Positions 9,541 through 31,229 of a stretch of 64,000 nt of DNA are shown piece by piece. The position numbers and the translations under genes were made by a program. The stretch's first letter is position 1, and each line of letters starts with the position of its first letter. Origin of the DNA: Sipunculus nudus (Eukaryota; Annelida; Sipuncula; Golfingiida; Sipunculidae); contig CM049311.1 of the NCBI GenBank assembly GCA_026874595.1, forward strand, positions 60,518,453 through 60,582,452, written 5' to 3'. The notes under the pieces are model-generated. The model was not told the origin of the DNA, did no database searches, and was given only the letters and a program-made list of their open reading frames with translations.

Positions 9541-9606
9541 GTTGCCTGCGCAGGTGTGTTTGGTCCTTTAGTTTTCATCAGTTTTCTGTTTTTTCTTCTG
9601 TCTTAC

Positions 9607-9724
9607 CTTGTCAAAGACTAGCGTATTAGTGGCAGCTCTGGTGAACCACACATCTTTGTAGAAGCTCTTGCTGACAGGATCACTGATGTCTGTGCCATCA
9701 TCTTTCTTCAGGCCAAGGTGCTCC
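9607..9724 (-). CDS. PLD1: PLD exon x: after HKD2, last exon found
   Basis: It encodes EHLGLKKDDGTDISDPVSKS, then FYKDVWFTRAATNTLVFDK. It matches the HLG ... DP-V-S-x-x-F-(Y/F)-K-(D/E)-VW-x-x-(T/A)A-x-x-N segment of PLD1/2. Acceptor GTCATTCAG; donor AAG|gtaaga. Reading past the donor gives only VRQKKKQKTDEN and a stop. The family normally has about 65 more residues ending in V-W-T; they were not found downstream. Confidence 0.94.
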
Positions 9725-9778
9725 CTGAATGACACAAAACAGTCAATGTGTTTACAGAGAGTCAAGTTACATTTGTAC

Positions 9779-10030
9779 AAAAATTTTTTTCCTGATCGGT
9801 CAAACGGTTCCCGAGATATGTTGGTTTATGTGTGAAAACAGACGCACAAATGGAGGCTGGGCAGAGAGGACTTGGTTATGCACCAGTTCACATGTGACCT
9901 GATAATTCGTGTACGTTTCGGAAAAATCCATCCAGTAATCTCAGAGGAGTTCTCCGGAAACGAATGTGGTGGCGGAACCCGGTCAAAAACTTAGTATCCG
10001 CAAAACTTTGTTTTGGCCGATACAAGTATT
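9779..10030 (+). mobile_element. Family F fragment (3' end only)
   Basis: It begins in the F monomer (CCTGATCGGTCAAACGGTTCC), continues through CAGACGCACAAATGGA and TTCACATGTGACCTGAT, and ends with the F tail hairpin GTATCCGCAAAAC...GTTTTGGCCGATAC. The 5' part is absent. It lies 54 bp from the PLD exon x acceptor, inside the 0.6-kb intron between exons w and x. Confidence 0.8.
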
Positions 10031-10315
10031 CATAATGAGTTTTTTTACTGTATTTTTTATTTAATTGTATAAAAAAATATGACAGAAATAGGAGCAGCTG
10101 AGTCTCTTTCAGGTCTTAATGAAAAAGAGATAAAAAGTTAATGACTCAGTCCTTCACAGTGCTTTAAGATTTAAACTTTCAGGAGGACATAGGCAAATGG
10201 TTAAGGCATTTGACTTCAGATCTGAGGGTCTCCAGTTTGATGCCAACATTTAGATAGAACTTTAGAAAGCAAAGTAAATTGCAATTGTGTGTGATAAATA
10301 AAATAAGATTTGAAC

Positions 10316-10533
10316 CTGAACAAAGCTTTTCTGAGGCTTGTGGCAAAATATCCAGCCTGGTAGCTCTGTCCGTCCATCACTGAGGATGCAGTCAGGGTGT
10401 CCTCCACCAGCACGGCCAGCTCACTGTCTCGCTTACCCAGCATGCTGCGGTCATTGATGTTGGCAGACCCTATGATGACCTTTCTGTCGTCAACAATCAT
10501 GAGCTTGCTGTGCACATACACAAGTTCAGTTGT
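10316..10533 (-). CDS. PLD1: PLD exon w: HKD motif 2
   Basis: It carries the second catalytic motif: [20 protein letters not shown] followed by [20 protein letters not shown]. The HxKxxxxD residues are H1203, K1205 and D1210 in the visible protein. [17 protein letters not shown] is diagnostic for PLD1/2. It continues with the MDG-x-x-YQAG-x-FA-x-x-LR segment. Acceptor TAATTTCAG; donor TTCAG|gttcaa. This is the strongest single piece of evidence for the gene's identity. Confidence 0.98.
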
Positions 10534-11376
10534 CTGAAATTATGAAGAAATATTCATAAATGATAGTACATGTAGTTTATGCTTTTTAAGCTCTTTAATA
10601 AGTAAAGATATTGCCTATTATTTTACTCTCTATTAATTAGCTTATATTACCTTAATTAGTGAACTCTGATTAAGTTCAAAATTACTCCTACTTAAAAAGG
10701 AGGAGGAGTACAGTTTAACACTGTGTGTGTTTGTGCACATTCATTCAAGACATTTGATGAATGAATCATGGATTTTATTAACTTTAGACAAAGATCTGTA
10801 GTGTAAACTTCTGAAAGTGATTAAACTTTTGAGGGAATCCCAATATAACAATACTGTTCAGAGGAATGCTAAAGTTCACTCAAGACTGGCACCTTGAACA
10901 CACTCAGGAGTGAAGGTCTTCTTTGGTCAAACATAATGCACACTTATTTTCAAATGATCCCCATTAACCTAAAGGTATAACCCTCTCTGGTGTAAAGTTT
11001 GTGAAGATACAACAAAAGGTGAGTAAGATATTACTAATAAATTAAAGTACTGAACAGTAAAAGGCCAAGACCTATGTATGGCAAATGCTTAGAAGTGTAC
11101 CAAAGCAAACCCCACAACAGACATATGAATAAGAGGTCAAAATATACTAGCAAATGCACCACACTACGCTAGTATGATGTATGAAGGTGAACCCCTAAAG
11201 AGGGTCTCGAGACACAATATTTACCCCCATCCCCTCACCTTCCTCAGTAGACTAGCAAAATCATCTCTGTACAAGTAATTAATATTTCAACTATAAAAAC
11301 ATATGTAAACCTTTCTGAATTTATAGAAAGTTACAACAAGAGTGGCCTGATATGGGAAATATTGACACATTTAATG
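10534..11376. other. Intron sequence without recognised features
   Basis: This is PLD intron between exon w and the 37-bp array. No open frame with a family motif and no terminal repeats were seen. Confidence 0.6.
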
Positions 11377-13294
11377 CTAGAATGAGTAGATACTAACCAG
11401 CCCCTTGGTTAAACTAGCAAGAATGGACACTAACCAGCCCCCTGGTCAAACTAGAAAGAGTGGATACTAACCAGCCCCTTGGTTAAACTAGAAAGAGTGG
11501 ATACTATCCAGCCCCTTGGTTAAACTAGAAAGAGTGGATGCTAACCAGCCACTTGGTTAAACTAGAAAGAGTGGATACTAACCAGACCCTTGGTTAAACT
11601 AGAAAGAGTGGATACTAACCAGCCTCTTGGTTAAACTAGAAAGAGTGGATACTAACCAGCCCCTTGGTTAAACTAGAAAGAGTGGATACTAACCAGACCC
11701 TTGGTTAAACTAGAAAGAGTGGATACTAACCAGACCCTTGGTTAAACTAGAAAGAGTGGATACTAACCAGCCCCTTGGTTAAACTAGAAAGAGTGGATAC
11801 TAACCAGCCCCTTGGTTAAACTAGAAAGAGTGGATACTAACCAGACCCTTGGTCAAACTAGAAAGAGTGGATACAAACCAGTCCCTTGGTTAAACTAAAA
11901 AGAGTGGATACTATCCAGCCCCTTGGTTAAACTAGAAAGAGTGGATACTAACCAGCCCCTTGGTTAAACTAGAAAGAGTGGATACTAACCAGACCCTTGG
12001 TTAAACTAGAAAGAGTGGATACTAACCAGCCCCTTGGTTAAACTAGAAAGAGTGGATACTAACCAGCTACTTGGTCAAACTAGAAAGAGAGGATACAAAC
12101 CAGTCCCTTGGTTAAACTAGAAAGAGTGGATACTATCCAGCCCCTTGGTCAAACTAGAAAGAGTGGATACTAACCAGCCACTTGGTTAAACTAGAAAGAG
12201 TGGATACTAACCAGCCCCTTGGTTAAACTAGAAAGAGTGGATACTAACCAGCCCCTTGGTTAAACTAGAAAGAGTGGATACTAACCAGCTCCTTGGTTAA
12301 ACTAGCAAGAATGGACACTAACCAGCCCCCTGGCCAAAATAGAAAGAGTGGATACTAACCAGCCCCTTGGTTAAACTAGAAAGAGTGGATACTAACCAGC
12401 CCTTTGGTTAAACTAGAAAGAATGAACACTAACCAGACCCTTGGTTAAACTAGTAAGAGTGGATACTAACAAGACCCTTGGTTAAACTAGAAAGAGTGGA
12501 TACTAACCAGCCCTTTGGTTAAACTAGAAAGATTGAACACTAACCAGCCCCTTGGTTAAACTACAAAGAGTGGATACTAACCAGCCCCTTGGTTAAACTA
12601 GAAAGAGTGGATACTAACCAGCCACTTGGTTAAACTAGAAAGAGTGGATACTAACCACACCCTTGGTTAAACTAGAAAGAGTGGATACTAACCAGCCCCT
12701 TGGTTAAACTAGAAAGAGTGGATACTAACCAGCCCCTTGGTTAAACTAGAAAGAGTGGATACTAACCAGACCCTTGGTTAAACTAGAAAGAGTGGATACT
12801 AACCAGCCCCTTGGGTAAACTAGCAAGAATGGACACTAACCAGCCCCCTGGTCAAACTAGAAAGAATGAACACTAACCAGCCCCTTGGTTAAACTACAAA
12901 GAGTGGATACTAACCAGCCCCTTGGTTAAACTAGAAAGAGTGGATACTAACCAGCCACTTGGTTAAACTAGAAAGAGTGGATACTAACCACACCCTTGGT
13001 TAAACTAGAAAGAGTGGATACTAACCAGCCCCTTGGTTAAACTAGAAAGAGTGGATACTAACCAGCCCCTTGGTTAAACTAGAAAGAGTGGATACTAACC
13101 AGACCCTTGGTTAAACTAGAAAGAGTGGATACTAACCAGCCCCTTGGGTAAACTAGAAAGAGTGGATACTAACCAGCCCCTTGGTTAAACTAGAAAGAGT
13201 AGATACTAACCAGACCCTTGGTTAAACTAGAAAGAGTGGATACTAACCAGACCCTTGGTTAACTATAAAGAGTGGACACTAACCAGCCCCTTGG
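11377..13294. repeat. 37-bp minisatellite, about 52 units, seeded at the exon v splice donor
   Basis: The unit reads CTAGAAAGAGTGGATACTAA then CCAGCCCCTTGGTTAAA on the plus strand. On the gene's strand each unit contains AACCAAGGGGCTG|GTTAGT, the same sequence as the end of exon v and its donor. The array ends exactly in the exon (13284-13294 is coding). Variants such as CAAGAATGGACACTAACC recur. A nine-unit block is duplicated (12533 and 12866, 333 bp apart), showing recent expansion. Confidence 0.97.
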
Positions 13295-13351
13295 GAAGCT
13301 CAGCATGTGTCCTGAGGCCACAGAATGTCACATACTCCTTGGCATCAGGCA
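13284..13351 (-). CDS. PLD1: PLD exon v: FCGLRTHAEL, donor inside a minisatellite
   Basis: It encodes PDAKEYVTFCGLRTHAELPK followed by GL. FCGLRTHAEL is a PLD1/2 signature just before HKD2. Acceptor TTATTCACAG. The donor CTG|gttagt lies inside the first unit of the 37-bp array, so the last codons (P-K-G-L) and the donor are repeat sequence. This donor is needed to join in frame to [11 protein letters not shown] in exon w. Reading past it gives VSVHSL and a stop. Confidence 0.93.
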
Positions 13352-13410
13352 CTGTGAATAAAGAAATATAGCTTTTCAGTATATTTATTAACAATACATC
13401 AAAGCAATTA

Positions 13411-15471
13411 AAACTAGATGTGTCGGTACGACACGAATGCCCCCGCCTGGGGCAAATTAGAAACATTTGTCAAATTTTGTAAAATTTTTTTAAGTTCAGG
13501 AGGTGTTGTATGGTCAAAAGTAGGTCAAGAAGGGCAAAATGCAAACTCGATCTGTAACGGGTCATTATCAAGGAACACACCAAAAATCAAGCCAGTATGC
13601 AGGCACTGTGAAAAAAGGTCCATACATGTGCATTTTTCATAAAAAATTCTCTTTTATGAAATTTTCTATGTTCAGGATCTGTCATATGGTCAAAAATAGG
13701 TTAACTGGGATGAAACGCGATCTTGACCTTTAAGTGGTCATTATGCGCCTACAGACCAAACACTGGGCCAGTATCTGTAAGCACTGTATTGCGAAACTAG
13801 AATATTAGCAAAAGCTGGTAATCAGTTATAAATTTAAATTGGAGAGGTATGTACCATGTTTTATAACAATCCACCAAATGCTTCCTGAGAAATATCCCCC
13901 TAAGTTTTTTTTCTATACTAAGCTCTGTGACCTTGAAAAGTAGGTCAAGACCACCCATCTTTGAACCTGACCAAGATTTTGTAAATATGATGCAAAAGCA
14001 CTGAAGTAATGAAGTTCTTCAGTTGAATACCTTTGGAGATATCCTGCACAAAGGCCAAAATTGAAAAATCCGATAAAATTTCATTAAAAAATCAGAAATT
14101 GCAGGTGACGCCACCAAAATTGTGCAGAACTTACAGACCATCAGTCCCAATGATCATAGTAAGTTTTGTGAAAATCCACACAATGGTTCCTGAGATATAA
14201 GCTTCTGAGGGTTTTTCTATAATCAGCTCTAAAATGTAGAAAAATGGGTCAAGGTCACCCATCTTCGAACTTGACTGAGATTTTATCGATATTTATCTTC
14301 ACTGATGAAATATAATTCCAACGGTGAATCCTTTTAGAGATATCCCGCTCACAAGGTAAAAGTTAATAGATGCGGAACGGACAGACGGACGGACGGACAT
14401 CGACAGACAGATGGACGGATAGACGGACAGCTTGTGTGACGACAATAGCCCATCAGCCTATGAGCTGAGGGCTAAAAACGGCTGTACATGTACATTTGTA
14501 ATAAAAATTAATTTTCATGAAATTTTCTATTTTTAGGAGCCGTAAAACAATCAAAAGTAGGTCAACCGGGACGAAACGCGAACTCGATCTGAAACTGGTC
14601 ATTATCTGCATACACACCAAAAATCAGGCCAATATCTGCAAGCATTGTGAAAAAAAACCGTACAGGTGTATTTGTCATGAAAATTTCTATTTTTCATGAA
14701 ATTTTCTAAGTTAAGGAGCCATAAAACGGTCAAAAGTAGGTCAACCTGGACGAAACGCAAACTCGATCTGTAACTGGTCATTATCTGCCCACACACCAAA
14801 AATCAGGCCAATATCTGCAGGCATTGCGAAAAAAAGTCCGTACATGTGTATTTGTCATGAAAATTTCTATTTTTCATGAAATTTCTAAGTTTAGGAGCCG
14901 TAAAACAGTCAAAAGTAGGTCAACTGGGACGAAACGCAAACTCGATCTGTAACTGGTCATTATCTGCCCACACACCAAAAATCAGGCCAATATCTGCAGG
15001 CATTGCGAAAAAAAGTCCGTACATGTGTATTTGTCATGAAAATTTCTATTTTTCATGAAATTTTCTAAGTTTAGGAGCCGTAAAACAGTCAAAAGTAGGT
15101 CAACCTGGACGAAACGCGAACTCGATCTGTAACTGGTCATTATCTGCCCACACACCAAAAATCAGGCCAATATCTGCAGGCATTGCAAAAAAAAGTCCGT
15201 ACATGTGTATTTGTCATGAAAATTTCTATTTTTCATGAAATTTTCTAAGTTAAGGAGCCGTAAAACAGTCAAAAGTAGGTCAACCGGGACGAAACGCGAA
15301 CCCAATCTGTAACTGGTCATTATCTGCCCACACACCAAAAATCAGGCCAATATCTGCAGGCATTGCGAAAAAAAGTCTGTACAACTGTTTTATTTCGGAA
15401 GGACGGAAGGACGGAATGACGGACATGGGTAAAACTATATGCCCCGGCCACTTTGTGGCGGGGGCATAAAA
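13411..15471 (+). mobile_element. HINE/pearl-like family D element with tandem monomers
   Basis: The head is CTAGATGTGTCGGTACGACAC (hairpin GTGTCG/CGACAC) followed by tag ATGCCCCCGCC at 13437-13447. The tail at 15439-15467 is ATGCCCCGGCCAC-TTT-GTGGCGGGGGCAT, followed by AAAA. Inside, monomers of about 180 bp (CATGAAAATTTCTATTTTTC, AAAAGTAGGTCAAC, GAAACGCGAACTCGATCTG, ACACACCAAAAATCAGGCC) repeat from about 14480 to 15390. A GGAAGGACGGAATGACGGAC stretch precedes the tail. A family E element is nested at 13797-14478. Confidence 0.85.
13797..14478 (+). mobile_element. Family E element nested inside family D
   Basis: It starts CTAGAATATTAGCAAAAGCT and ends GCTGAGGGCTAAAAA at 14464-14478. It interrupts a D monomer between GCACTGTATTGCGAA and CGGCTGTACATG. 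Compared with the E copy at 26135 it lacks about 90 bp after the head, including the tag. It carries (GACG)n at 14382-14430 and the box variant GGTGACGCCACC at about 14105. Confidence 0.8.
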
Positions 15472-16076
15472 ATGCCCTGGCAGCAATGTGATAAAAGGTC
15501 TGTGTTTGCTCTAGACCTTCAACATGGCTAATTTTCCAAAACTGATCTATGGGCAAAATAATAATGACAGGTGACAGATTCACATGTGGGATTCAGTTTT
15601 GAAATTGACCCACTTAAGTTGTGAATTTACAGTTTACTTTTTTCATTAATAAGTCCATTATTGCTCAATGGTATTCTGTATGGATCGCTTCCATGGACAG
15701 CTTTTCCCCATAACAATCAAACAGTCCTCTCAGAAAAAGGGCCCCGGTCATATATATTCCAGAAGTTTAAAATCTTGCATTAACAGAGCTGCAGGTATTG
15801 GGAGTTGAATGGTAAAGGAGCAGTTTCCCTTGCTATCTTCAAATGCAGATCTCTGGTTTACCTTTACCTTTTGACCTTAACCTTGCTGATTACTGAAGTT
15901 ACTGATACTACACATCATTATCTTAACATCTGGCTAATAACTACTGGGCTCTGTTGGGCATCTGGGAGGATGAGACCAAAATGTTTCATGAAAATGAGGA
16001 GACAGATTTTGAGGATGAGTTCTCACCTGACTGCTTCAATCATTTGATCTTAGACCAAATAAATATAGACATGTAA
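15472..16076. other. Intron sequence, mostly unassigned
   Basis: No exon or complete repeat was found. AGGGCCCCGG at 15738 matches the arm of the family M tail hairpin (6511) and may be an orphan head. Confidence 0.5.
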
Positions 16077-17341
16077 CAAGTAACCCGTGGGTCATGACGC
16101 TCAGCCGACTGACATGTTGACAATGTCCTTGCACAGACAACTAATTAAGATAATGTAGGTGGCATCATTGTTCATGCATAATAGCTTAAGTTTATCAAGA
16201 CTCATAAGCACAACGAATCTGATGACAAACCAACTGGCCTTTCATGAGGAATCTGGTAATTTGTGTGTATTTTGCATTTTTCTAGGGTGCTCAAACATAC
16301 CCCCAAACTCTGATAATATAGTTACCTGTGACCAAATTTCAGGTTTCCAAGGAGATTTTCATAGACCTCCCTGGATTTTAGGTTAGAAGATTCCAGGTCC
16401 AATGTATATGATTTGTGCCTTGCTTTGGTATCAAATTTTTAATTATGATGGGGAGTGCTTATAAGCCCAATAGCTCAGAGAATATGGGTAACAGAGACCT
16501 AATTTCAGGTTTCCATGGAGACTTTTCATGTACCTCCCTGGATGTAAAGTGAGAAGATTCTAGGTCTAGTTGTCACGCTTTGAGCCCTGTTGACAGATGA
16601 CCGCATCTTTTAAGGTCTCATAAATAGATAAAGAAATGGTAAAAAATCGAAAAAATTCAGGTGGCACCACCAGTCTGCAGAAACTGATGAAAAACTCCAT
16701 GATGAATATCCATGCAAAGAATCATGGTGATCAATGCATTAGTTGTTCAGATACTTGAGCTTTAATATCAAATTTTTTTCTGGGGGGTACTTCGGAACCC
16801 ATAGCTTGAAGAATATGGGTACCAGAGACCTAATTCCAGGTTTTCAAGGAGACTTTTCATGGGCCTCCCAGCATGACGAGACAAAAGATTCTAAGTCCAG
16901 CGGTTACAATTTGTGCCCTGTTGACAGATGACCGCATCTTTTAAGGTCTCAAAAATAGAGAAAAAAATAGTAAAAAATGGAAAAATACAGGTGGGGCCAC
17001 CATTCTGCAAAAACTGATGTAACACACAATGATCAATATCCATGCAGAGAATCATGGTGATCAATGCATTAGTTATTCAGATACTTGAGCTTTTGTATCA
17101 AATTTTTCATTTTTCTGGGGAGTACTTCGGAGCCCCATAGCTTGAAGAATATGGGTAACAGAGACCTAATTCCAGGTTTTCAAGGAGATTTTTCATGGAC
17201 CTCTTTGGATGTAAAGTAAGAAGATTCCAGGTCCAGCGGTAAGGATTTGTGCCTTGTTAACCGACAGTCGGCCCGATGGCCGGAAGACGGACAAAGAGTG
17301 ATCGCTATGGCTCAGATGACTTACAGTCAGCTGAGCTAAAA
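16077..17341 (+). mobile_element. Complete family A element, about 1.27 kb
   Basis: The head CAAGTAACCCGTGGGTCATG is followed by a slightly decayed tag, GCTCAGCCGAC. It has three A monomers (boxes at about 16660 and 16990, plus a partial one from 16310), a short degenerate CCGACAG/GACGG stretch, and the tail AGTCAGCTGAGCTAAAA. The tail ends 77 bp from PLD exon u on its donor side. Confidence 0.8.
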
Positions 17342-17418
17342 CACAATTCATAATCTGGCTACAGAAGTACTTGTATTCATAAAATCTGTTAAAACTCCTG
17401 TGCCAGATCAATCCTTAC

Positions 17419-17582
17419 CAATGGAAGCTAGTCGCCCTAGTAGTGACTTTTTCCCTCGACAGATGGAGCTGTAGTTCCAGTGGGTGATGGCTTGCAGCTG
17501 TGTTCCTGTTGGTGTTCCAATTTCTCCCTCAAAACTTGGTAACAGTGGCATGATCACGTACACACGGAAGTTTGTCCCTTCC
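17419..17582 (-). CDS. PLD1: PLD exon u: catalytic half 2
   Basis: It encodes EGTNFRVYVIMPLLPSFEGE, then IGTPTGTQLQAITHWNYSSI and CRGKKSLLGRLASI. The F-(R/K)-V-Y-V-(V/I)-(I/M)-PLLP-x-FEG block, the Q-x-I-(M/T)-H-W-x-Y segment and the C-R-G-x-x-S-L-L/I-x-(R/Q)-L segment are conserved. Acceptor CTCTAAG; donor ATTG|gtaagg. Confidence 0.96.
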
Positions 17583-17930
17583 CTTAGAGGAGGAAAGAAG
17601 ATAATATAGTTCTGATGGATGTTTTACTGATTTTCTTTGGTTGGCATGATAAAAGACACCCACAGTGTCAAAAGTTGAAGTCACACAATGACTGTACACT
17701 TGGACTTTTTTATTGTGACTGATAAGAACGTTTTATGTCCCATATATAATGGACTTCAATTTCACAGAAATCTCACAAATAGAATTTGTAAACATTTTTC
17801 AAACTCTATGATTTTGACCCATTAAGTTGTTGAGTGTACACTCTCACACTGTGGTTTCCAACTACTTTGTTTAATATCTCACAAAATCATAGCAAATATC
17901 ATAGTGTATCAAAGTTCCAAATACAACTAG

Positions 17931-18743
17931 ATGTGTCAGAACAACACGAATGCCCCCGCCTGGAGCAAATTAGAAATATTTGTTAAATTTTGAAAAATTT
18001 TTTAAGTTCAGGAGGTGTCATATGGTCTAAAGTATGTCTGTAACTAGTCATTATCTGCCCACACACGATAAATCAGGTTAATATCTGCAGGCATTGCGAA
18101 AAAAAGTCTGTACACGTGCACTTGTCATGAAAATTTATATTTTTCATGAAATTTTCTATGTTAGGGCACCGTCAAACGGTCAAAAGTAGGTCAACTGGGA
18201 CAAAACCCGAACTCTATCTGTCACTGGTTATTATCTGCCAACACAACAAATATCAGGCCAATATCTGCAGGCATTGCGTAAAAAAGTCTGTACATGTGTA
18301 TTTGTCATGAAAATTTCTCTTTTATATTAAATTTTTTTATGTTAAGGAGCTGTATAACGGTCAAAAGTAGGTCAACTTGGATGAAACAGGAACTAGATCT
18401 GTAACTAATCATTATCTGCCCACACACCAAAAATCAGGCCAATATCTGCAGGCACTGCAAAAAAAAGCCCGTACATGTGTATTTGTCATGAAAATTTCTA
18501 TTTTTTATGAAATTTTCTATGTTCAAGAGCAGTAAAATGGTCAAAAGTAGGTCAACTTGGATGAAACGCGAACTCGATCTGTAACTGTCCATTATCTGCC
18601 CACACATCAAAAACCAGGCCAATATCTGCAGGCATTGCGAAAAAATGTCCGTACAACTGTTTGATTTTGGAATGACGGAAGGACGGAATGACGGACATGG
18701 GTAAAACTATATGCCCCGGCCACTTTGTGGTGGGGGCATAAAA
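17931..18743 (+). mobile_element. Second family D element, about 0.81 kb
   Basis: Head CTAGATGTGTCAGAACAACAC with tag ATGCCCCCGCC; tail ATGCCCCGGCCAC-TTT-GTGGTGGGGGCAT followed by AAAA. The first head hairpin is decayed. Four D monomers are inside. It shares about 50 bp of head with the copy at 13411 and differs in monomer number, as expected for these elements. The tail ends about 21 bp from the exon t donor. Confidence 0.85.
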
Positions 18744-18764
18744 ATGTTTTACAGATATCCTCAC

Positions 18765-18853
18765 CTGTAAGCCCGGACTATCCTCTCATATAAAGCATCA
18801 GCTATTTTGTTTTCTACCACATCATGTCCCGCAATCGAAATGAAGAACTGGTT
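18765..18853 (-). CDS. PLD1: PLD exon t: catalytic half 2, 'NQFFIS'
   Basis: It starts with NQFFISIAGHDVVENKIADA and ends LYERIVRAY plus a split Arg. The (I/E)ENQFFIS motif crosses the border with exon s. Acceptor CTCTCCTCAG; donor ACAG|gtgagg. The tail of a family D repeat lies about 21 bp beyond the donor. Confidence 0.94.
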
Positions 18854-19590
18854 CTGAGGAGAGAGGTGTTTACAAAGTCAGAATATATGTGAACACTCAA
18901 CAATGTGAAAAGTTGCTTCCAAAACATGTCTAATTATTTTGAGTTCCTGCCATGTAACAGCCATAAACTGATATAAATTTTTCAAATATTGACATATAAA
19001 TTTCATATTTAGATTAAGAAAAAGAAAACATAACCTTGATCAATATGGATATATTTACTGCTAATTAATATTATTATTTGGTTATAACTGAACATTTGCC
19101 TGTGATACATATGTATCAAATTAAACATCATTCTCAAAGTAAAAGTGAGTTTCTGTACTGTTTTTGTACTGACTTTAATTTGCTATTATTGATCATTCAT
19201 GGAAAGCTATGTCCTACTACATCTAACATTGGTAAGTCTACAAGCCCAAGTTATTGGTTAGAAACAAGCTAAATGAAATATGAATGGCTGATTGTCTGGA
19301 AATTATTTTACTTTGTAATGGTTTGGATTCTTATTTTATGATAAGTCTTCTGATCTTTATAAGAGCAAGGAAGAATTCTATATACCGTATTTGTATCACA
19401 TCATGCATCATATCATTAGTAAAGTACCAGGAAACATATTATATGTATTATCTTTATGTATTGTTACAGTCCTAGTTTACAATGATTCTTATCTGCTTCA
19501 CCAAAACCAGACAAAAGACCTATATTTTTACACACAAACCCCCACTGTCTTTACAAAGTTCATGGTGACTATTAGCCTCACAGTTCATAC

Positions 19591-19701
19591 CTCTATAAAG
19601 ATGTAATGGTTGGCGTTCTTGACGAGGTCTAGGTAAGCCTTGTGTATTGAACTCTCCACATACTGTATACCACATGACCACCTGCTTGCACTGCGGAGGA
19701 T
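19591..19701 (-). CDS. PLD1: PLD exon s: catalytic half 2, 'HYIFIE' strand
   Basis: It encodes ILRSASRWSCGIQYVESSIH, then KAYLDLVKNANHYIFIE. It matches LRSA-x-x-WS-x-G-I and the E-x-SI-x-x-AY ... HYIYIENQFF strand, with the N-Q-F-F in the next exon. Acceptor TTCTTACAG; donor GAG|gtatga; phase 0 both sides. The acceptor tract lies within about 12 nt of a repeat head (see the A head at 19711). Confidence 0.95.
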
Positions 19702-19710
19702 CTGTAAGAA

Positions 19711-19745
19711 GAAGAGACCCATGGGTCACAATGCTCAGCTCAATA
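19711..19745 (+). repeat. Orphan family A head next to a PLD acceptor
   Basis: GAAGAGACCCATGGGTCACAATGCTCAGCT matches the A head and the start of its tag. No monomer or tail follows before exon r. On the gene's strand its first bases form part of the pyrimidine tract (CTTCTTCTTACAG) of the exon s acceptor, which begins 10 nt away. Confidence 0.7.
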
Positions 19746-19922
19746 CGGTGCTAACAGTAAGGACCCATACAATTGAGAAAACAATAAGAAACATCTAAAA
19801 AATGAGTGGTACTCAATTTCAGACTTTTATCTTGAAATCACATTCTACCTTATAGTACAGAATTTAATGGCACCATGAAAAATTTAGACAATAAACAAAC
19901 AAGAAAAGTGGCTGGCACGAAC

Positions 19923-20033
19923 CTGGCAGGAACACTTGATGGACATCTTTTGAAAGCCTGGGGGTACAAAGGCCCGGGCATTAGACTTTGGCAGGAGCAA
20001 TGGGTATAAATGATTTTTTTTCATTTTCTGCAC
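19923..20033 (-). CDS. PLD1: PLD exon r: catalytic half 2
   Basis: It encodes VQKMKKNHLYPLLLPKSNAR and then AFVPPGFQKMSIKCSCQ. It matches the Y-P-(F/L)-L-L-P-K-S segment of PLD1/2; the part after it is less conserved. Acceptor TTTCAG; donor CAG|gttcgt; both phase 0, 37 residues. It is separated by 7.7 kb of repeat-rich intron from exon q. Confidence 0.9.
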
Positions 20034-20094
20034 CTGAAAGAAATAGAACCCATAACATAACAAATCTGAAAATTCAGCATTTGCAAAGCTAAGA

Positions 20095-20580
20095 GGAAAT
20101 GATCCTGCTATTTGGTGATAATCATATACTAAACATATTACTGCCTAACTAATACTCTCATATGACTGCCATGGTAAAAACAGCTTTTTTTATGTATTGT
20201 GTATGAAATATTTACAGATCGACAGACAGGTTGACATAAAAGACTGATAAACTTTTCATTTCTGCTTAGGCAGGGATATGATTTTTAGTTTATATTAAAC
20301 TCTGTTTTTCAGCATGTCCATTTGGCAGGAGAATAAGGCTTTATTTAATGAATTTAATGAATTATATTGAATTTTATTTCAATTTTTCAAATTTTATAAA
20401 ATTGCAATATAAACAAAAATCAGCAAATATAAGTATATCTAGAATTATAAGATGCATCATTATTTATCCTTAGTTTGATCATGTCAAATTAAGATGTCAC
20501 ATAATTACTATTTTTCAAAATCATAAAATTCTTGAATAAATTTAGAAGAAATTATTTTTAAAGATAAAATAACTAAAAAA
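20095..20580 (+). repeat. Diverged repeat shared with 53110-53730
   Basis: GCTAAGAGGAAA..GATCCT.CTA.TTGG, ACTAATACTCT.A.A.GACTG.CATG and a GACAGACAGGTTGACAT stretch match the copy at about 53118-53300 in order. No terminal motif was seen. It is AT-rich and noncoding. Confidence 0.5.
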
Positions 20581-21481
20581 AAAGGGACCTATGGGTCACT
20601 GTGCTCAGCTGACGTTAACCTAGAAGGTAAAAATCTAAAATAATAGCTAATGGAGATAAAGTGCAAGAGGAAGAGGTAATAAAGGCCATGGTTGGTTTAT
20701 ATGATTGGTTTGTATTGATGAGCAAGAAATTGTTGCAAAAAATATTTTGTGACCTGGCCATGTGTTTCCTTATGTTTGTGAACAAATGATCTGTACTATT
20801 ACCATGATCATTAGTTGGTTTTTTGATTAACTGTTGACATTTCAGTAGTTTACACATTTGTTCAATTGAATCTATTTTTTGTATAATATATATTATTAAA
20901 TATATATGTATTTTTTTTATGAAATGTATACAGTTGAAATATAGCTAATTAACAACATAAAACAGGGCAAACAAAGCCTGATCTCAAATTTTGCTGAGGC
21001 AGGAAAATAATGAACAAATGTTTGTATTAAATCCTCATTTTTTTATCACATCAATTATTTTCTAATTTAAGTTTATATTTCTATACATTTCCAATTTAAC
21101 ATATATATCTGAATATAAAAGTTGATTCATAATTCTCAATTGCATCATCATAAATCTCAATCTTGTCAGATAACACCACATCATGCATACAAATGTTTAT
21201 TTATTTTTACCACAAAAATATATCTTTTAAATCTGCAAAACAATAAATATCTAAAAATAATACTTGATTTAGATTTCACAATTTTTAATTGTGTCTTTAT
21301 TTATCCATAATGTGCTTCATATTTTATAATAATTTAAGCATACTGATGGGTTCAAATATATTTGTTAAAATCATTTAAAAGAAAATTGATTTCTTTAAAA
21401 ATGCTACATTACACAACATTGCATCTTCTGGATTACACCTTGAATTATTTTTTAATGACTTATAGTCAGCTGAGCTAAAAA
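20581..21481 (+). mobile_element. Family A termini around an unrelated AT-rich core
   Basis: Head AGGGACCTATGGGTCACTGT with tag GCTCAGCTGAC, and tail TAATGACTTATAGTCAGCTGAGCT + AAAA. The core has no A monomers. Just outside the tail, CATCTTCTAGATTATTCCTT repeats a phrase found before the tail at about 21422, and the sequence to about 21760 resembles 53560-53710. Confidence 0.6.
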
Positions 21482-21807
21482 CATGGCATCTTCTAGATTA
21501 TTCCTTGGATCACTATTCCAAAAACGTTTTGTACACTGGAGTTTTTCAGTTTCAAGTACATACTTCATTTTATTCACTAAAAAAAAAGATTCAGTAAAAC
21601 TGATTAAAAATTCCCTCTTCAAATCAGGCATACACACTGTTGGTTGGTTGAGGGAAGAACAAGATCATTATGCTAAATATAATCTCAACTATGTGTCGCA
21701 AGAGGACTGTGACTTAGTTATTGTATTGCATGTTATAGTAGGGAGTATAAACAGATGATTGTTTTGATAATTTACTGTACATTTTTATGGAGTATCATGT
21801 TTTATTA

Positions 21808-22640
21808 TTAGCCTGAGATCTTTGATAAAAGAGCACGTGTCTTATTTGGTGTTGGTTTCAATACAGTTAAAGGCCTGCTTCCACCCTCTGGGTGTTTTTG
21901 CATATATGAAAGGTCTGAACCTACAAATAGAATAGATGTAAAAATTACTGACATTGGGGAGCTACTATCCGTGATAGGAACGAATATGTGAACAGAGTCC
22001 TGGGAGCCCCCTGAAAAAGTTGAGACAGCCCTTGGTTGCGCGTCCACGTGGTTTCAGCAAGGCCGGACGGGTCGATCTGATCAAGCGAGTCGGAGGAATC
22101 ATCGTAAGATGACAATGTCTGAGACACGTTAAAGGAGAATAAAGCGGCGAATTTAGATCTGTAGATTTATGGCAACTTCGACATTAGCCTCATGTAATTT
22201 TGGACCATGTATACGTTGTTAGAAACAAAAGTCGGTGACACAGACAGCGGCCGCTGCAAGCCAACACTGGCAACAGGTTTGATTCCAGTGACGAAGTGAC
22301 AGGCTGTACAAAATCGAGGATGGAGTCTGTGGGAATTTTAAGGGATATTCTCAATCTGGTGTTTATAATCAAAATAACGAGATTATTCAGTAATATAATA
22401 TTTGAAGCAAGAAAATGTTGAGTAGTACCAGATGCCAATGGTGAATCTTGACTTGGTCGAGTTTGTCCAATATCGCTCGCGACGCTTTGCAACAAAGTTT
22501 GTTGTTGTGATACATTAACAATGTTGTGACTGGAGCCGTGGTGGCATATTTTGATTCTGCAAATATCAGCTGATAAGCAACTTGGTTTTGTCGTATGAAT
22601 AAAGCGCTGGTCCTTTTTTTTTATCATAATTTATAAATAC
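21808..22640 (-). other. CG-richer island with a possible unassigned first exon
   Basis: This stretch is richer in C, G and CpG than its surroundings. A minus-strand frame from ATG at 22127 reads MSQTLSSYDDSSDSLDQIDP then SGLAETTWTRNQGL, which looks like a natural disordered N-terminus, but I recognise no family and no strong splice donor follows. It lies inside the PLD q-r intron and could be an internal promoter, a nested gene, or an old repeat. Confidence 0.25.
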
Positions 22641-22967
22641 ATGCTTCATAATCAGAAATGCAAAATTGCTGTTTTGACATTGATAAGCGCTTTTTTGTAT
22701 AGCGGTAGTATTACTATATATACTTTTCGTATAATATATAAAGCGAGTTTTGACTTGGCAGGCCTTACCTCATAAATACATGTAACCTTATAGTACCACA
22801 CACGGGGCTAGTCTTAAATGAAGCTGTTTACGTACCACACCCATCCCGATGGAGGGTGGTACTAATTTTAAGAACTCCCTCCTCCCCCCCCCCCCCCTCG
22901 GCCCATCATCATGGAGATGATACATACATTTGATTATCTATATAATTTACACTCTTTCCTTTTATAA

Positions 22968-23053
<86 letters not shown>

Positions 23054-23847
23054 TAAATTTGAAATATATAATACAAAGCATGAAATTCACATTTTTAAAT
23101 GAATTATGAAAGAGTCATGTTTCATAATACAAAAATCACACACAGTGACATTATAATTATACACAGTATATATGTATGATACAGTTCTGTATATAACACT
23201 CCACCAGACGGAAAGCCCCATGACCATGGCTATTAATGAAAGTATTATTAATCTGTTTTATGTTGGCAATGTTATAGGTCAAGTTCTTGCCATACTGCCT
23301 CAGCTAGGCTTTACTTGTGCAAACAAAAATTTAACAAGCAAGATTTTAAGAATAATTGCTCTGTTTTTGTTTGGGCTGATGTAAAACAGTGTATCTGGAT
23401 TTCAGGGGTACTTTTAGTATGCCCCAATTTAAGAAATGTGTAATGTGAAAAAAAAAAATGTGCTCAGAAACCATACATGTATTCCAGTTATAATACTCTG
23501 CATGATAGCAGATTTAATTCCAAGAAAAGTACATTTACAATAAATTAACATTTAAAATTATACAAAATTACCCATATGTTGTCTTTGGTAAGGTTGATCA
23601 GTATATGTATAGGTATATATGGACTAAATGCATGGGTACTTTGGCAAGTGTATCATCTGAAGGTTCAAGTGTAACATCTTTGAGTGCAATATGGCAAATC
23701 ATACTAACAAGGAAGGAGTGAGACTGCTGAAACAGATTTGGAGTTCTCTTTATGACTGACTGGGTAATTGATTTGATATTTTGTTATATACATACTACAA
23801 GTGTCTATCTTTATATATCTACACACACACACACACATATATATATA

Positions 23848-23895
<48 letters not shown>

Positions 23896-24650
23896 ATATT
23901 TACATGTATACACGTTTTATATTCATATTTCATATACAAGTATTACATACTTAAATTTACATACTTATTACATTTTAATCACACCTCTTAAATTATATGT
24001 ATGCGTGTGTGTGAATACTTGGCGTAGAATTTGTTTTTTTTTTTGTTATATAAAAATGGATAAAACATTGCTTATCACATTTTATACAACAAATACACAT
24101 TTTTAAAACAATATAACTGTTTTTAATTACATATATTTAAATGAAAACTTTAAAAAAATTTCAAACAGAGTGAAAATATCCCCAACCCATATATAACACA
24201 CACGTTTAATGTAAGGAAGCCATTACGAAGCCTATTTTTTCATATTATTTGGGCACAGAAATAAAATATGCTGAAATGCATGGTATAATTTTTTAAAATT
24301 GGTAATTGTCTGATATTTCAAAAGATTTGAAATATTAAAATTAATTATTTTGATTATTGTTAACAATAAGGAGGAACGATTTTTAACATGGTCCTGGGTT
24401 TATTTTCTTAAGAATCCTATAAATTGTTTCTCCAATGTTAATGCCTTTGCTGCGGCACCATGCACCGAGCTTTACTTGACCCCTACGGTCATATGTGTCT
24501 TGAAACTTGTAAAAAAAAGGCCCAAAATAAAAAATAAGGTTTTTATCATTTACAAGCGTTCAACACATTTAATAATAAATTAATTGATTGATCAGTTTGA
24601 TATTATTAAACTTATACGAAAAAAAAAATCAACAAGCAGCTATATGTTGG
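22641..24650. repeat. AT-rich intron with TA, GA and CA microsatellites
   Basis: C-run at about 22885-22897; (TA)n then (GA)n at 22972-23048; (CA)n then (TA)n at 23821-23893. Open frames here are read from dinucleotide repeats. No exon found. Confidence 0.85.
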
Positions 24651-26133
24651 TTGTCATATAACACGTCGCTTGAAATCCTGATACGACGTCAGTGCAGACT
24701 GCGTGGTGCCAGCTCCCAACGTGTCAAGGCCAAGTCGGGGAATAACAGTTGCAAAGTTGAAGACTAAGAGATACAGGAGTCGTAAAGATGAAAAGCAGCA
24801 TCATTTCCTAGTTAGCAGCCTACGTATGTAAGGGATGTAGAGTGGCAACAAAGGTGACTAAATGTCAGGAAAAGTCCGTCCGCACCCTCATGTCAGTGGC
24901 CAAACCTGGGGAATCCCCTTCCCAGATCATGCTCGGCCGGGTCCAGTTAAGCCTCTTCTGTTAAGAAAATCCTGTCCATTTGGCACGAACATGTGGCTTA
25001 TACACTTGTTAAAATATGATTAAGCTCACACCATCACCCTTGATGTTACTGCTCAACCCGACGACGCAATACTTTGGCATATTTTCCCCAGATCGTGTTA
25101 AACTCAACTGATGCCATTACAATACCGCCCGGTGTGTTCTGGTTGTGACGTCACAATCGCCTTGGCCAGGACGCTTCTGTTTGGCTTGGGGCCCCTGAGT
25201 GGGGTGGATTATGGGTCTTTCGATTTAAATTTTAACAGTTAAGTGCGCAAAACTTGATTTTATTATACCATAATTTAAACATATACATGTAAATGAATAA
25301 ACCTTCAGTAGTATTTCATTTTATTTTTTTCATGGAAGTAGGCCTTTAAATTCTGTGTGAGCCATCTCTGTTTGGCAGTCTCTATAGTTACAACTGTTTG
25401 TTGTGGACATGTAATAACTGGCAGTCGGCATAATAGGAAGTGGTGATTAGCCAGAAGATGGTCAGGACTTGTGACATTAGCATGCATATATAAGACGTGA
25501 TAAAGATGAAATTCACTACAAGTGCCTGGTCAGTGTGCCAGTTCGTGAAGCCTGACGATATCTAAGAGTGGCAGGTCTGCAGGCATCAGAGTTTAGACAG
25601 GCCTGTCTGAGTAAGGCCACAGTGATTTATCTGTAATGGACTACAGAGTGAGAATCGCATTTTTGCCGACAGACTGGTTAATCTGGCAATTTAAACCTGT
25701 TGGGAGCACTTTCAGGAACAAACCAAGGCCATAATTAAAATGCATAACTCTGGAGGTTCTGGATATTGCTGTGTGGAAGCATATTCGATTACCTAGAGCT
25801 GCTTGGTTCCAAATCAGCTGTGAACAACACTGACTTTAAGTAAAGATAGGATCGTCTGTTGTAATTAGTGAGTACTGTGTGAACTGTGTCTCGAGTGTAC
25901 TCCAGTGAGGGACTATTGGTTGTCAGAGCTCCTGTGTATCAAAAGTGGACTGATTGTACTGTGTACATGATGCGAACAAACAGTGAGTGTACTGTAGTTA
26001 ACAGACTTGGTGGTTGTTTCTGTGATTATTATATAACTTTTATGATCTTCAGTGCCTAGATGTATGGAGCGAGATTATTTATCTTTTTGAGTGTATGTAT
26101 GCTGAGTTTCAGCCAGTTGGTTTGACAGTTTAA
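24651..26133. other. Less AT-rich noncoding stretch, unassigned
   Basis: Between 24660 and 25200 and again 25500-26000 the sequence is CG-richer than the flanks. All frames are short, and no termini or monomers of the named repeat families are present. Confidence 0.35.
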
Positions 26134-26134
26134 A

Positions 26135-27174
26135 CTAGAATATCAGCAGAAGCTGACAAAAGCCCTCAGCCAAAAACAACAGTGTTTAGAGGTGATAACA
26201 GTAACAAGTACTAAATATCTGTTCTCACATGGATGTATATCTGTACATGTCTCAGTTATAAATTTAAAATGGAGAGGTATGTACCATGATTCATAACAAT
26301 CCACCAAATGCTTCCTGAAAAATAAGCTTCTAAGTTTTATTCTATTATAAGCTCTGTGACCTTGAAAAGTAGGTCAAGGTCACCCATCTTCGAACTTGAC
26401 CGAGATTTTGTAGATATACGTCTTCACCAAAGAAATAAAATTCCTCTTGAGAATCTTTTTAGAGATATCCCACTCACAAGGCCAAAGTTGAAAAATCCAA
26501 GAAAAATTCATTAAAAATCAGAAATTGCAGATGGCGCCCCAAATTTATGCAGCAGTTACAGACCATCAGTCCCTATAATCATAGTAAGAATTGTGAAAAT
26601 CCACCCAATGGTTTCTGAGAAATAAGCTTCTAAATGTTTTTTCTATAATCAGCTCTAAAACGTAGAAAAATAGGTCAAGGTCACCCATCTTCGAACTTGA
26701 CCGAGATTTTGTAGATATACGTCTTCACCAAAGAAATAAAATTCCTCTTGTGAATCCTTTTAGAGATATCCCACTCACAAGCCCAAAGTTGAAAAATCCA
26801 ATAAAAATTCATTAAAAATCAGAAATTGTAGGTGGCGCCACCAAACTTGTGAAGCAGGTACAGACTAACAGTCCTAATAACCATAGTAAGTTTTGTGAAA
26901 ATCCACCAAATGGTTCCTGAGTGATAAGCATCTAAGTGTTTTTCTATAATCAGCTCTAAAATGTAGAAAAATAGGTCAAGGTCACCCATCTTCGAACTTG
27001 ACCGAGATTTTGTCGATATACATCTTTACCGAGGAAATAAAATTCTGACGGTGAATCCTTTTCAAGATATCCCGCTCACAAGGTAAAAGTTAACGGACGC
27101 CGGACGGACGGACGGACGATGGACAGCTTGGGTGATGACAATAGCCCATCAGCCTAAGGGCTGAGGGCTAAAAA
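26135..27174 (+). mobile_element. Complete family E element, about 1.04 kb
   Basis: The head CTAGAATATCAGCAGAAGCTGAC contains hairpin TCAGC/GCTGA, followed by tag AGCCCTCAGCC at 26161-26171. The tail is AGCCCATCAGCC-TAAG-GGCTGAGGGCT + AAAAA at 27143-27174. Inside are about three monomers of around 300 bp with GGTCAAGGTCACCCATCTTC and the box GGTGGCGCCACC (26831). (ACGG)n lies at 27095-27118. Confidence 0.88.
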
Positions 27175-27319
27175 CCTGGTTGTTCACATCTCTTGTGGTG
27201 TCACACTATGATTTAATACTGAACTTCACACATGTAAAAAAAGAGAGCAAACAATTTTAAATCTTATTAAGCATGGAATTCCTCACAACATGCACACTCA
27301 CACTTTTATAGCAATACAT

Positions 27320-27643
27320 ACCACTGAAACTGGCCATGGTCAGTAGGATTAGCAAGAACAATGGCAAATCATGCATAAATTATTGAGATTCTTGAGCTTT
27401 TGTATCAAAAGTTTAATTATTCGGGGTTGAACAAACAAGCTCCACAACTTGTAGGATATAGGTCACAGTTGCCTAATTTCAGGTTTCTTAGGAGATTTTT
27501 CAAGGACCTCCATGAAGATTCAGTGAGAAGTTTCAAGATCCAGTGGTTATGATTTGTGCTGTGCTAATATGAGGGACGGAAAGATGAGGGACAAGGGGCG
27601 ATCGCGATACCTCAGCTTGACTGAGAGTCATCTGAGCTAAAAA
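27320..27643 (+). mobile_element. Diverged single-monomer family A remnant
   Basis: It contains CATGCATAAATTATTGAGAT, TTTGTATCAAAA, AGGATATAGGTCACAG and CCTAATTTCAGGTTTC of the A monomer, then GAGGGACGGAAAGATGAGGG and a variant tail CTCAGCTTGACTGAGAGTCATCTGAGCT + AAAAA. No head was seen. It lies between the E element and exon q. Confidence 0.7.
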
Positions 27644-27760
27644 TGTAAAAGTTATACATAAAAAAAATAAAATATCAGTATTAAAATTGTTGTATAATAG
27701 GTATGTAAGTGATCACTGCATAAGAATGTAAGGTGAAGTGACAACCAAATATTTATTAAC

Positions 27761-27879
27761 CTTTGTGAAGTTCCATCGCTGTATGAAGTGTCGTGCAACA
27801 TCTCGGGCAGACTTCCCGTACACCACAGCTGCAATGTCATGCCAGGGCATTCGAGGGGTGACTGCTCTGCTTATGAAAT
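27761..27879 (-). CDS. PLD1: PLD exon q: catalytic half 2, PRMPWHD motif
   Basis: It encodes [20 protein letters not shown], then [26 protein letters not shown] and the [14 protein letters not shown]-x-K block are among the most conserved sequences of eukaryotic PLD1/2. Acceptor TTGTTTCAG; donor AAAG|gttaat. The intron before it holds a family G repeat with a nested family F copy. Confidence 0.97.
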
Positions 27880-28110
27880 CTGAAACAAAAGAAAAAAACA
27901 TAGGAAATATTCATACAATATATATTACTGTGGTATCTGCTCTGACCATTTAATTTCTCAATATTTGGTGCAGAAAACTGATAAAGATATAAATGTGTTG
28001 TGAACTTTGCAAATAACTTGAGTATAAAACTTAATTACCTTGATGTTATTTAAAGACTAACCTCAAGAGGAATTACTGAAATCTGCGAAGTTTTTCAAGA
28101 TTAAGGTTAA

Positions 28111-30154
28111 CAAGGCCTACAGGCCTAATGCGAACCTGTGCAAAGTTTAGGAGTATGAATGGAGGTTTATTTTAGAAATTTAATATTGATCCTCTTAAGT
28201 CCTGCATATCTACCTTAGTCATTATGATTTCAGCAAACTGGAAATTTCAGACCTGCAAGTTTCAGACTAGGACATTTTAAAACCAGAATATGGGTAGTCG
28301 ACAAGCGACTAAGTGTATCTGCAGAAATCAGAGTGGGACGGGTGAAGTGAGGCATGGATTAAGTGGCAAGGGGAATAGAGTGAGGTGTGTTGCATATTAG
28401 CATGGATGTCTGCAGCTTAAACGTGAATGTAGGTGGTGCCACCTGTCATAAAATCGAGAAAATTGTCCATGATGTATAAACCTGCAAATTTCAGGTGGAT
28501 AAGTCAAACCACTGCTGAGATATGAGTGATTTTATCCTAAGGCAGATGAACAGATGGACGCTGTGCATAAGTGGTTGCAGGTGGTGCCACCAGTTTTGCC
28601 TATGATGAAGAGCTATGTGAGATCTATACACATGCAAAATTTTGACCCAATCGGTCAAACGGTTCCCGGTATATGAGCTTGGATGTCTGCAGAGTAATCC
28701 TGAATGTAGGTGGCGCCACCTGTCATAAAATCAAGAAAGCTGTCCAGGATGTATAAACCTGCAAAATGTCAGGTGGATAAGTCAAACCACTTCTGAGATA
28801 TGAGTGATTTTATCCCAAGGCAGATGAACAGATGGACCCTACAGGTGCAAAAGTGGTTGCAGGTGGCGCTACCAGTTTTGCCTATGATGAAGAGCTATGT
28901 GAGATCTATACACATGCAAAATTTTGGCCCAATCAGTCAAATGGTTCCCGAGATATGAGCTTGGATGTCTGCAGAGTAAATATGAATGTAGGTGGTGCCA
29001 CCTGTCATAAAATCGAGAAAGCTGTCCAGGATGTATAAACCTGTAAAAAATTCAGGTGGAAAAGTCAAACCACTGCTGAGATATGAGTGATATTATCCCA
29101 CGGCAGATGAACAGATGGACGCTACCATTTTTAGTGTTTGTTATAAAGCTATCAAAGGGCTACATTTGTGCAAAATTTTTAGCCTGATCGGTCAAACGGT
29201 TCCCGAGATATGTGGGTTTATGTGTGGAAACAGACGCACAAATGGACGCTGGGCAGCGAGGAAAGGTCAGAGATCAACCAAAAATGAGGGCGCAGCAGTT
29301 CACATGTGACCTGATGAAAAACCTGATTCGCTAAAAATGCAAACCAAATTTTTTCAAACAGTTGAAAGATATAGTTCCAATAATCTTGGAATCCTGCATC
29401 TAGACATCTAGACATCTAGACGCTGTGTCTGAAACTCAGCATGTTGTCAAATCTGTTTTCAAACACAGAAAGCCTTTTTCAAATGGCTACACTGCTTTTT
29501 TAAGCTGTATTTACCCAATCTATTCTTATAAAACTGGCAGAACCCTACCAAAGAATAATTCTAGTAAAGTTCAAACCAATCAGCTTAACAGTTTCATCAT
29601 AAATCAGTGTATAAGCTTGAATAGAGTTTAAAATTACATTTTTGCTAGTAAAAAACACATCAATGTCGGTGGTGCCACCAATACCTCAATTTCAGATATG
29701 ACATATGTGACAAACATTGGTATAAAATTTGGTGATTATAGCCGTTTCTGAGATTTTAATTTTTTAGAGTGCTTTTTTGGACAGATGACTAAGTTCAACC
29801 TCCTGTAACTCAGCCAAAAATCTCCGAAATGGAACCATTCGAACAAACTTGAGAAAGATTGTTCCAGGGATCATTTCTGTGAAATATTGGACAATTTGCC
29901 TGGACAGTTTTGGAGAATAAGATTTTAAAGCTTTTTTTTAGCTTTTTCCCTATAAAAGCCAAGAAAATGCAGTTAGGAAAAAAATAAACAAAATCCAATA
30001 GAGTTTTTTAGATGACTGATTATTTGCAAAACATTTGGTGATGCTAGCTTCAGCCATTTTTGAGATAGCTATGGTTAACGTACAGACGACGCACAACGCA
30101 CAACAGACGATGCACGACGCCCCACCATTGCATAAGCTCACAGGTTCGCTAAAA
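28111..30154 (+). mobile_element. Family G element carrying a nested family F copy
   Basis: The head CAAGGCCTACAGGCCTAAT is followed by tag GCGAACCTGTG (28130-28140). The end is the inverted tag CACAGGTTCGC + TAAAAAA at 30139-30154. The G core includes GGTGGTGCCACCAATACCTC and TTTGGACAGATGACTAAGTT. ACGACGCACAACGCACAAC precedes the tail. F sequence occupies 28283 to about 29312. Confidence 0.7.
28283..29312 (+). mobile_element. Family F copy nested in G, tail missing
   Basis: Head AGAATATGGGTAGTCGACAAGCGACT (hairpin around ACAAG), then three monomers of about 280 bp with GATGTCTGCAG, GGTGGCGCCACC (perfect at 28709) and GGTTCCCGAGATATGAGCTT. It breaks off after TTCACATGTGACCTGAT, with no GTATCCGC hairpin. 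Confidence 0.75.
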
Positions 30155-30370
30155 AACATTTTAAGACAGTTAAACTTTGCTATAAAGACCACCAACAGGA
30201 CCTCAATAAAGTGGTCACATTCAGAGGTGGTCGTCTAAGTAAGGTTTATATAAAGAGCAAAGTAGAATCGAGAACCTGAACGACTGGTCGTTATTTTGAG
30301 GTGGTTGCTAAACCAAGGTGGTCGTTAGATGAGGTTTTCCTGTACCTTCTGTTTATCTTAGAAAACTTAC

Positions 30371-31131: not shown

Positions 31132-31229
31132 CTGAAATCAAACTCTGTGGACTCATTGGACAACCTCACTTCTACAGACATTGATTTTCTCCTCCGAAAT
31201 CGTTCCTTTAAATTGTGAGCCTTCTCAGC
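31132..31229 (-). CDS. PLD1: PLD exon o: end of the loop
   Basis: It encodes AEKAHNLKERFRRRKSMSVE and then VRLSNESTEFDF plus a split residue. RRRKSMS is a typical basic-directed (PKA/AKT-like) phosphorylation context, which is inference. Acceptor CATTTTAG; donor TTCAG|gtgatt. Phase agrees with exons n and p. No strong PLD motif lies inside. Confidence 0.82.

Follow-up and report, generated by a model that had tools for sequence, protein, structure and literature searches.

Minisatellites that begin at exon ends and carry the 5' splice site into the intron, at two donors of a Sipunculus nudus phospholipase D gene and at exon edges of other genes

The question raised by this stretch of Sipunculus nudus DNA (the window, 64,000 nucleotides in length) is how a single gene came to hold two minisatellites, each extending from a 5' splice site into the intron downstream, and whether this layout calls for a mutational process peculiar to splice donors or could have arisen by ordinary tandem duplication at exon edges. 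The sequence-only reading had favored the former, with R-loop formation or transcription-linked slippage as its examples.

Both minisatellites lie in a phospholipase D (PLD) gene on the minus strand, along which PX, PH-like and PLDc exons follow one another in order. A tblastn search using human PLD1 as the query located 17 exons at window positions 9604..62883, from PX to beyond the second HKD motif (HKD2), one of which (61513-61445) is supported only at E 0.34. Support independent of this query came from Pfam matches to PX (E 2.3e-07) and PLDc (E 5.2e-09). The PH-like exon (58869..59021, minus strand) was placed by the tblastn search at 55.8% identity and gave no Pfam match by itself; it ends in GLRISNLSR, which corresponds to GIRIDNLSR of the human PLD1 query, and is followed by the donor gtaaag. 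The predicted succession of PX, PH and two HKD motifs, with the PH exon assigned through tblastn, is the layout of PLD1/2. Between both HKD exons lies a 407-aa open frame (33289-34512, minus strand) that by eye is rich in Ser, Asp and Glu and whose best Pfam match (E 0.25) falls below the cut-off; this frame is perhaps the large PLD loop exon.

The first array occupies positions 11377..13294 on the minus strand. TRF reported a period of 37, 51.9 copies, 92% matches and a score of 3304, and a regular-expression walk along the minus strand yielded 52 units (first step 36 nt, all others 37), in agreement with the approximately 52 units originally read. The score of 3304 rules out chance as the origin of the repeat itself. 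The unit is TTTAACCAAGGGGCTG|GTTAGTATCCACTCTTTCTAG, in which 11 nt of exon end are joined at the donor to about 26 nt of intron start. The exon concerned, exon v (68 nt, 13284..13351, minus strand), ends in YVTFCGLRTHAELPKGL (HAELPKGL) with a phase 0 donor, and its last 11 nt (13294-13284, CCAAGGGGCTG) are the first 11 nt of the array. Exon v shows weak matches to PLD1 and PLD2 structures (E 0.013-0.33), and the next exon (10316..10533, minus strand), which carries the second HKD motif, matches PLD1 structures at E 4.3e-28. Residues 6-20 of exon v align to residues 400-414 of the PLD1 chain 6u8z_A, so that its last residue (23) corresponds to PLD1 417, assuming that the last three residues are gap-free; residue 2 of the next exon aligns to 6u8z_A 419, which places its residue 1 at 418. 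The chains 6ohr_A and 6ohm_A show the same continuity. Since the PLD1 numbering runs continuously from 417 to 418 across the junction, the exon v donor is placed at CTG|gttagt (13284|13283), the putative 5' splice site gttagt occupying 13278..13283 (minus strand) within the first repeat unit. The identification of that unit with the P-K-G-L end of exon v and its donor is thereby upheld, and because it coincides with a conserved coding exon, the end of which was located through homology to PLD1, that exon is likely the source of the repeat. The accompanying statement that every unit carries CCAAGGGGCTG|GTTAGT was too strong: CTGGTTAGT is exact in 43 of the 52 units and the donor GT is intact in 49, but three units have GA instead and the G directly before CTG is altered in 15/52. 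Units differ by point changes, and a multi-unit block recurs within the array (by eye); repeated multi-unit blocks are usual in minisatellites. The array takes up 69% of the 2,750-nt intron after exon v, with 843 nt of other sequence separating its end (11377) from the acceptor (next exon from 10533). A search of a plasmid collection with the array returned no match.

The second array (TRF, 57525..58894, minus strand) comprises 23 units of 60 bp and begins 26 nt inside the PH-like exon, at the junction CAAG|gtaaag. Each unit contains about 26 nt of exon end, the donor and about 34 nt of intron, and the donor GT is intact in all 23. The 26-nt exon overlap was taken from the TRF end and the third unit (24/26 identical); scripted extension gave 11 nt against the diverged second unit and 0 against the next two, for which wrong offsets were picked. 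No relatedness between the 37-bp and 60-bp units could be detected (local score 9, equalled by 150 of 500 shuffles), and the gene does contain, as originally proposed, two independent donor arrays that each extend from a 5' splice site into the downstream intron. The conclusion drawn from this pairing, that two such events in one gene point to a mechanism, was not supported. Two arrays in one 17-donor gene have a probability of 0.002-0.004 at 0.35-0.55% per donor, a rate that is itself an assumption estimated from word counts and Markov expectations; multiplied by an assumed 20,000-30,000 genes, this probability predicts several to tens of two-array genes without any gene-specific cause. The coincidence is post hoc and lends weak support to a mechanism peculiar to donor sites. 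Longer-period tandem blocks (180-341 bp, 2.5-5.8 copies; TRF) are also found in the window, at 3964-5952, 14484-15383, 26298-27082, 28394-29125, 47758-48621 and 49549-50888, and the similar consensus at distant blocks (28394 and 49549) suggests dispersed tandem elements.

Donor arrays in the 1.43-Gb genome were sampled as three occurrences of AGGTAAGT separated by gaps of 10-40 nt, a pattern with 687 matches. Among the matches listed, 22 distinct arrays were distinguished over 331.8 Mb (C1 to C4:24.5 Mb), about 23% of the genome. Triple patterns detect only periods of about 18-50 nt; one piece (G000:C1:1041372-1046191) holds dozens of AGGTAAGT at 58-nt steps, outside the gap range, and the sample therefore misses longer periods. 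Reading of the 5' sides showed that 12 of the 22 listed arrays begin at a coding-exon donor, while nine have no recognisable exon on that side and one (L056) fills its fetched piece and was left uncalled. The twelve exons, called by eye, are those of L031, L033, L035 (PH-like), L036 (MRP1-like), L041 (PKA regulatory subunit I), L042, L048 (XPD), L049, L050, L052 (Arv1-like), L054 and its duplicate L055. Database support was obtained for five. It is strong for L041 (PKA-RI, 2.6e-24) and L048 (3.6e-07 to XPD, 5.4e-05 to rad3), and weak for L052 (Arv1, 0.0031) and L035 (PH, 0.018), both below the Pfam cut-off, and for L036, whose MRP1 match is not significant (E 2.5) yet ends at the same residue. 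The remaining seven (L031, L033, L042, L049, L050, L054, L055) were called from protein-like sequence in an open frame behind an acceptor; the L033 and L054 exons had no PDB match, and the L042 exon, like the acceptor-array exons of L063 and L069, had weak off-target Pfam matches only. We take L042 to be ACSL-like, L054 to be CEBPZ-like and L069 to be SLC5-like. L054 and L055 (C3:73.79 and 73.83 Mb) are duplicated loci about 37 kb apart, each with a 22-nt donor array, and how far they have diverged could serve to date the growth of the arrays since the duplication. The XPD exon (C3:48564800-48565500) has a second, different tandem repeat in the intron that precedes its acceptor, in addition to the donor array downstream. 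L062 and L075 resemble one dispersed family.

The placement of the repeat unit relative to the exon was examined in nine donor arrays using the second copy. In all nine the exon contributes 21-30 nt to a period of 28-44, a lean into the exon relative to uniform placement (KS P 0.0013) that had been noticed before it was tested. Scripted overlap depended on the copy chosen, with 2 nt against the third copy of L049 and 0 against the fourth of L033. The same lean, measured apart from the KS test, is seen in L052 (25/40) and in L054 and L055 (15/22); the PLD pair leans into the exon less (11/37 and 26/60). Reading past the donor encounters a stop within two units in 11 of 13 donor arrays (the PLD pair and 11 others, L055 left out). 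In PLD this stop comes at +18 nt in the 37-bp array and at +1 nt in the 60-bp array, which means that only the first donor would give full-length PLD. Two arrays of 42 nt behave differently: the stop in L036 first appears in the ninth unit, and L050 is stop-free in its fetched piece. By analogy with human IFI6, L036 (MRP1-like) and L050 could be candidates for in-frame repeat isoforms.

Enrichment at 5' over 3' splice sites had been put forward as support for a donor-linked origin, and acceptors were sampled with TTTYTNCAGG in triple (199 matches; reversed control, 38). Going by general splice-site frequencies, this word and AGGTAAGT would sample roughly similar numbers of true sites. The listed acceptor-word arrays number 21, from C3 to C14, and the 3' side of 20 was read (C13:62561039 left out), each array being judged on its exon-side end only. 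Eight of the 20 end at a coding acceptor (L059, L063, L064 (COR-A), L069, L072 (Tcf25), L073, L074 (CP2) and L076), and in 12 no coding acceptor was seen on the 3' side. Pfam matches to Tcf25 (6.9e-11) and CP2 (2e-16) lie above the cut-off and that to COR-A (9.9e-06) below it; the five other exons (L059, L063, L069, L073, L076) were called on the same three features as the seven donor exons above. According to the script, which covered six of the eight, the unit includes 18-31 nt of exon in L064, L069 and L076 and 1-2 nt in L063 and L072; for L059 it chose a wrong offset, and the overlap is about 3 nt by eye. The L073 and L074 arrays adjoin the exon (by eye). Exon-containing units are present in 12/22 donor-word arrays (at least 15 nt) vs 3/20 acceptor-word arrays (at least 18 nt; Fisher 0.011), or in 11/20 vs 3/19 with duplicates collapsed (Fisher 0.019). 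When arrays that merely abut the acceptor are counted, the comparison becomes 12/22 vs 8/20 and the difference is lost (Fisher 0.37). Recurrence at donors stands, but the presence of arrays at coding acceptors rules out a strictly 5' phenomenon. The class of junction-spanning arrays is real and recurrent, and it is not exclusive to 5' sites.

The rate at which donors acquire arrays was evaluated against word frequencies. Single-word genome counts were 45,924 for AGGTAAGT and 67,855 for the reversed word TGAATGGA. Markov expectations of orders 1, 2 and 3, derived from a 200-kb random sample, were 44,200, 37,200 and 35,800 for AGGTAAGT and 90,400, 70,300 and 66,000 for TGAATGGA. Orders 2 and 3 were chosen because they fit the reversed word, which order 1 overshoots (90,400 vs 67,855). 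They give an estimate of about 9,000-10,000 true AGGTAAGT donors, about a fifth of the occurrences; this estimate is rough, as order 1 leaves almost no excess and in-array copies inflate the count. Within 264 kb AGGTAAGT occurs 7 times, which does not exceed the mean of 8.2 for its anagrams. If true donors make up 0.20-0.25 of the occurrences, finding at least 11 of 20 arrays at donors (duplicates collapsed) has a P of 0.0006-0.004. Over the 331.8 Mb, the array rate is 12 per approximately 2,200 estimated donors (0.55%) vs 9 per approximately 8,500 non-donor AGGTAAGT (0.11%), a roughly 5-fold ratio that is based on exon calls made by eye and is uncorrected for any overall surplus of arrays in genes. 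Extrapolation gives about 570-860 donor arrays vs about 65-285 expected under uniform seeding, with intron numbers and donor frequency assumed. The reversed word in triple (538 vs 687 matches) was rejected as a control for array number; its listed places come from two long arrays.

Twenty random pieces of 10 kb from C6 (200 kb; TRF period at least 12, at least 5 copies) contained 5 TRF rows, or about one array per 40 kb, and at this density some overlap with exon junctions is to be expected. On the sides that were read, no clear span of a coding junction was found among the five rows; the rows of L028 reach the end of their piece. One piece, L019 (C6:32301242-32311241), has minisatellites at 367-892 and 6957-7205 beside exons, one of them Dpy19-like (3.9e-09), and these arrays start 32 nt and 169 nt downstream of two different donors. 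Such nearness to donors without exon overlap should belong in any census.

We consider it probable, on balance, that the PLD arrays began as ordinary tandem duplications that happened to straddle an exon edge, were tolerated there and then expanded in the intron. A short duplication would have copied the final 11 (or 26) nt of the exon together with its 5' splice site and 25-26 (or about 34) nt from the start of the intron, and unequal exchange or slippage would then have raised the duplicate copies to 52 and 23 units. Seeds of this kind may arise along genes generally, those at exon edges surviving if the exon-adjacent splice site still wins. With one intact copy remaining at the exon edge, the duplicate lies in the intron and is free to expand. 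We infer the order of duplication before expansion, the selection filter and the main use of the first donor; as downstream donors lead to early stops, a neutral origin would require the first donor to be dominant. Selection would also differ between the two ends of an intron. Duplication of an acceptor places an extra AG upstream of the real one, and splicing is likely to use it. Because donor duplication leaves the first donor in place while acceptor duplication adds an upstream AG, exon-spanning acceptor arrays should be the rarer, as was seen. The simple form of uniform seeding is opposed by a donor count above expectation, by the approximately 5-fold per-site rate and by the exon lean in 9/9 arrays. 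Uniform seeding with tolerance does not predict that lean, which is the strongest argument for continuing to consider a donor-linked process. In such a process, for example through template switching or breakage coupled to transcription or splicing at 5' splice sites, exon ends would be duplicated more often than other sequence, and PLD would have been hit twice. The per-site rates (0.55% vs 0.11%), the contrast between donors and acceptors in exon-containing units and the exon lean in all nine tested arrays speak for it, but the lean is smaller in the PLD pair itself, acceptor arrays exist and remove the contrast once abutting ones are counted, selection would produce the same scarcity of exon-spanning acceptor units, and the comparison rests on exon calls by eye with any overall enrichment of arrays within genes uncontrolled. 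The R-loop version is not supported by composition: a G-rich non-template strand is expected, but the coding-strand G-skew is +0.01 in the 37-bp array and -0.31 in the 60-bp array. We regard a donor-linked process as rather unlikely. Its broadest form is a tentative and still doubtful idea, namely that exon edges, 5' edges above all, are recurrent birthplaces of minisatellites, where a donor-tied process copies the last 15-30 nt of the exon with a short intron tail and expands them, leaving donor ladders in hundreds of genes.

Two further explanations concern what the arrays do and whether they exist as assembled. The 49 GT sites of the 37-bp array might serve as U1 binding decoys, or as a series of alternative donors whose premature stops would tune PLD output, or the array might protect the intron from early polyadenylation. 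The donor hexamer columns do vary less than the rest (6/306 vs 71/1,581 cells, Fisher 0.04), the GT is intact in 23/23 units of the 60-bp array, and in IFI6 two downstream repeat units serve as donors according to the available text of PMC4526556. Units are copies of one another, their columns are not independent, and donor conservation is therefore rejected as proof of function; moreover, 3/52 units lack the GT, and the occurrence of two unrelated units in one gene together with arrays in other genes points to a general process. A functional role of this kind appears very improbable. Long tandem arrays are prone to assembly error, but the point differences among units and the repeated multi-unit block (by eye), the confinement of all 22 genome matches of the 37-bp array, among the best candidates scored, to the PLD locus, and the recurrence of the same layout at unrelated genes make an assembly or alignment artefact scarcely credible.

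The preferred explanation, duplication at the exon edge with later expansion in the intron, can be set against several known systems. Human IFI6 (6-16, G1P3) reportedly contains a minisatellite with multiple splice donor sites (Turri, Cuin and Porter are said to have described it in 1995, NAR 23:1854), and its unit reportedly measures 12 bp and starts in exon 2. The PLD arrays resemble it as tandem repeats at an exon donor in which each unit is a possible donor, beginning in the exon end and running into the intron; they differ in their units of 37 and 60 bp and in that use of a downstream donor would lead to stop codons. Intron gain by tandem duplication, for which the available text of PMC4974935 names Rogers, Hellsten 2011 (ATP2A1), 24-bp exonic repeats of fission yeast and a potato RdRp, likewise involves the tandem duplication, at a coding site, of a short stretch that carries splice signals, whereas in PLD an intron was enlarged and no new one made. 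This model was rejected for the 37-bp array, whose unit has no AGGT (CTG|GTTAGT) and no copy at the downstream exon. The intronic minisatellite VNTR6-1 in TERT intron 6 is of similar period (38 bp, 24-66.5 copies) and affects splicing, but unlike the PLD array it is located some 3.5 kb upstream of exon 7 and has predicted G-quadruplexes, and the available text reports no exon end in its unit (PMC11830802).

A search of the open-licence literature found no genome-wide class of junction-spanning minisatellites, and the sole precedent found for a donor minisatellite is the single human gene IFI6. The layout at both PLD donors and at 12 further ones (11 with the duplicated locus collapsed) in about 23% of the genome, together with its acceptor counterparts, turns this precedent into a countable class. 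The origin of minisatellites at exon edges thereby becomes testable by a simple census, and the donor arrays constitute natural experiments on how the spliceosome chooses among dozens of near-identical donors.
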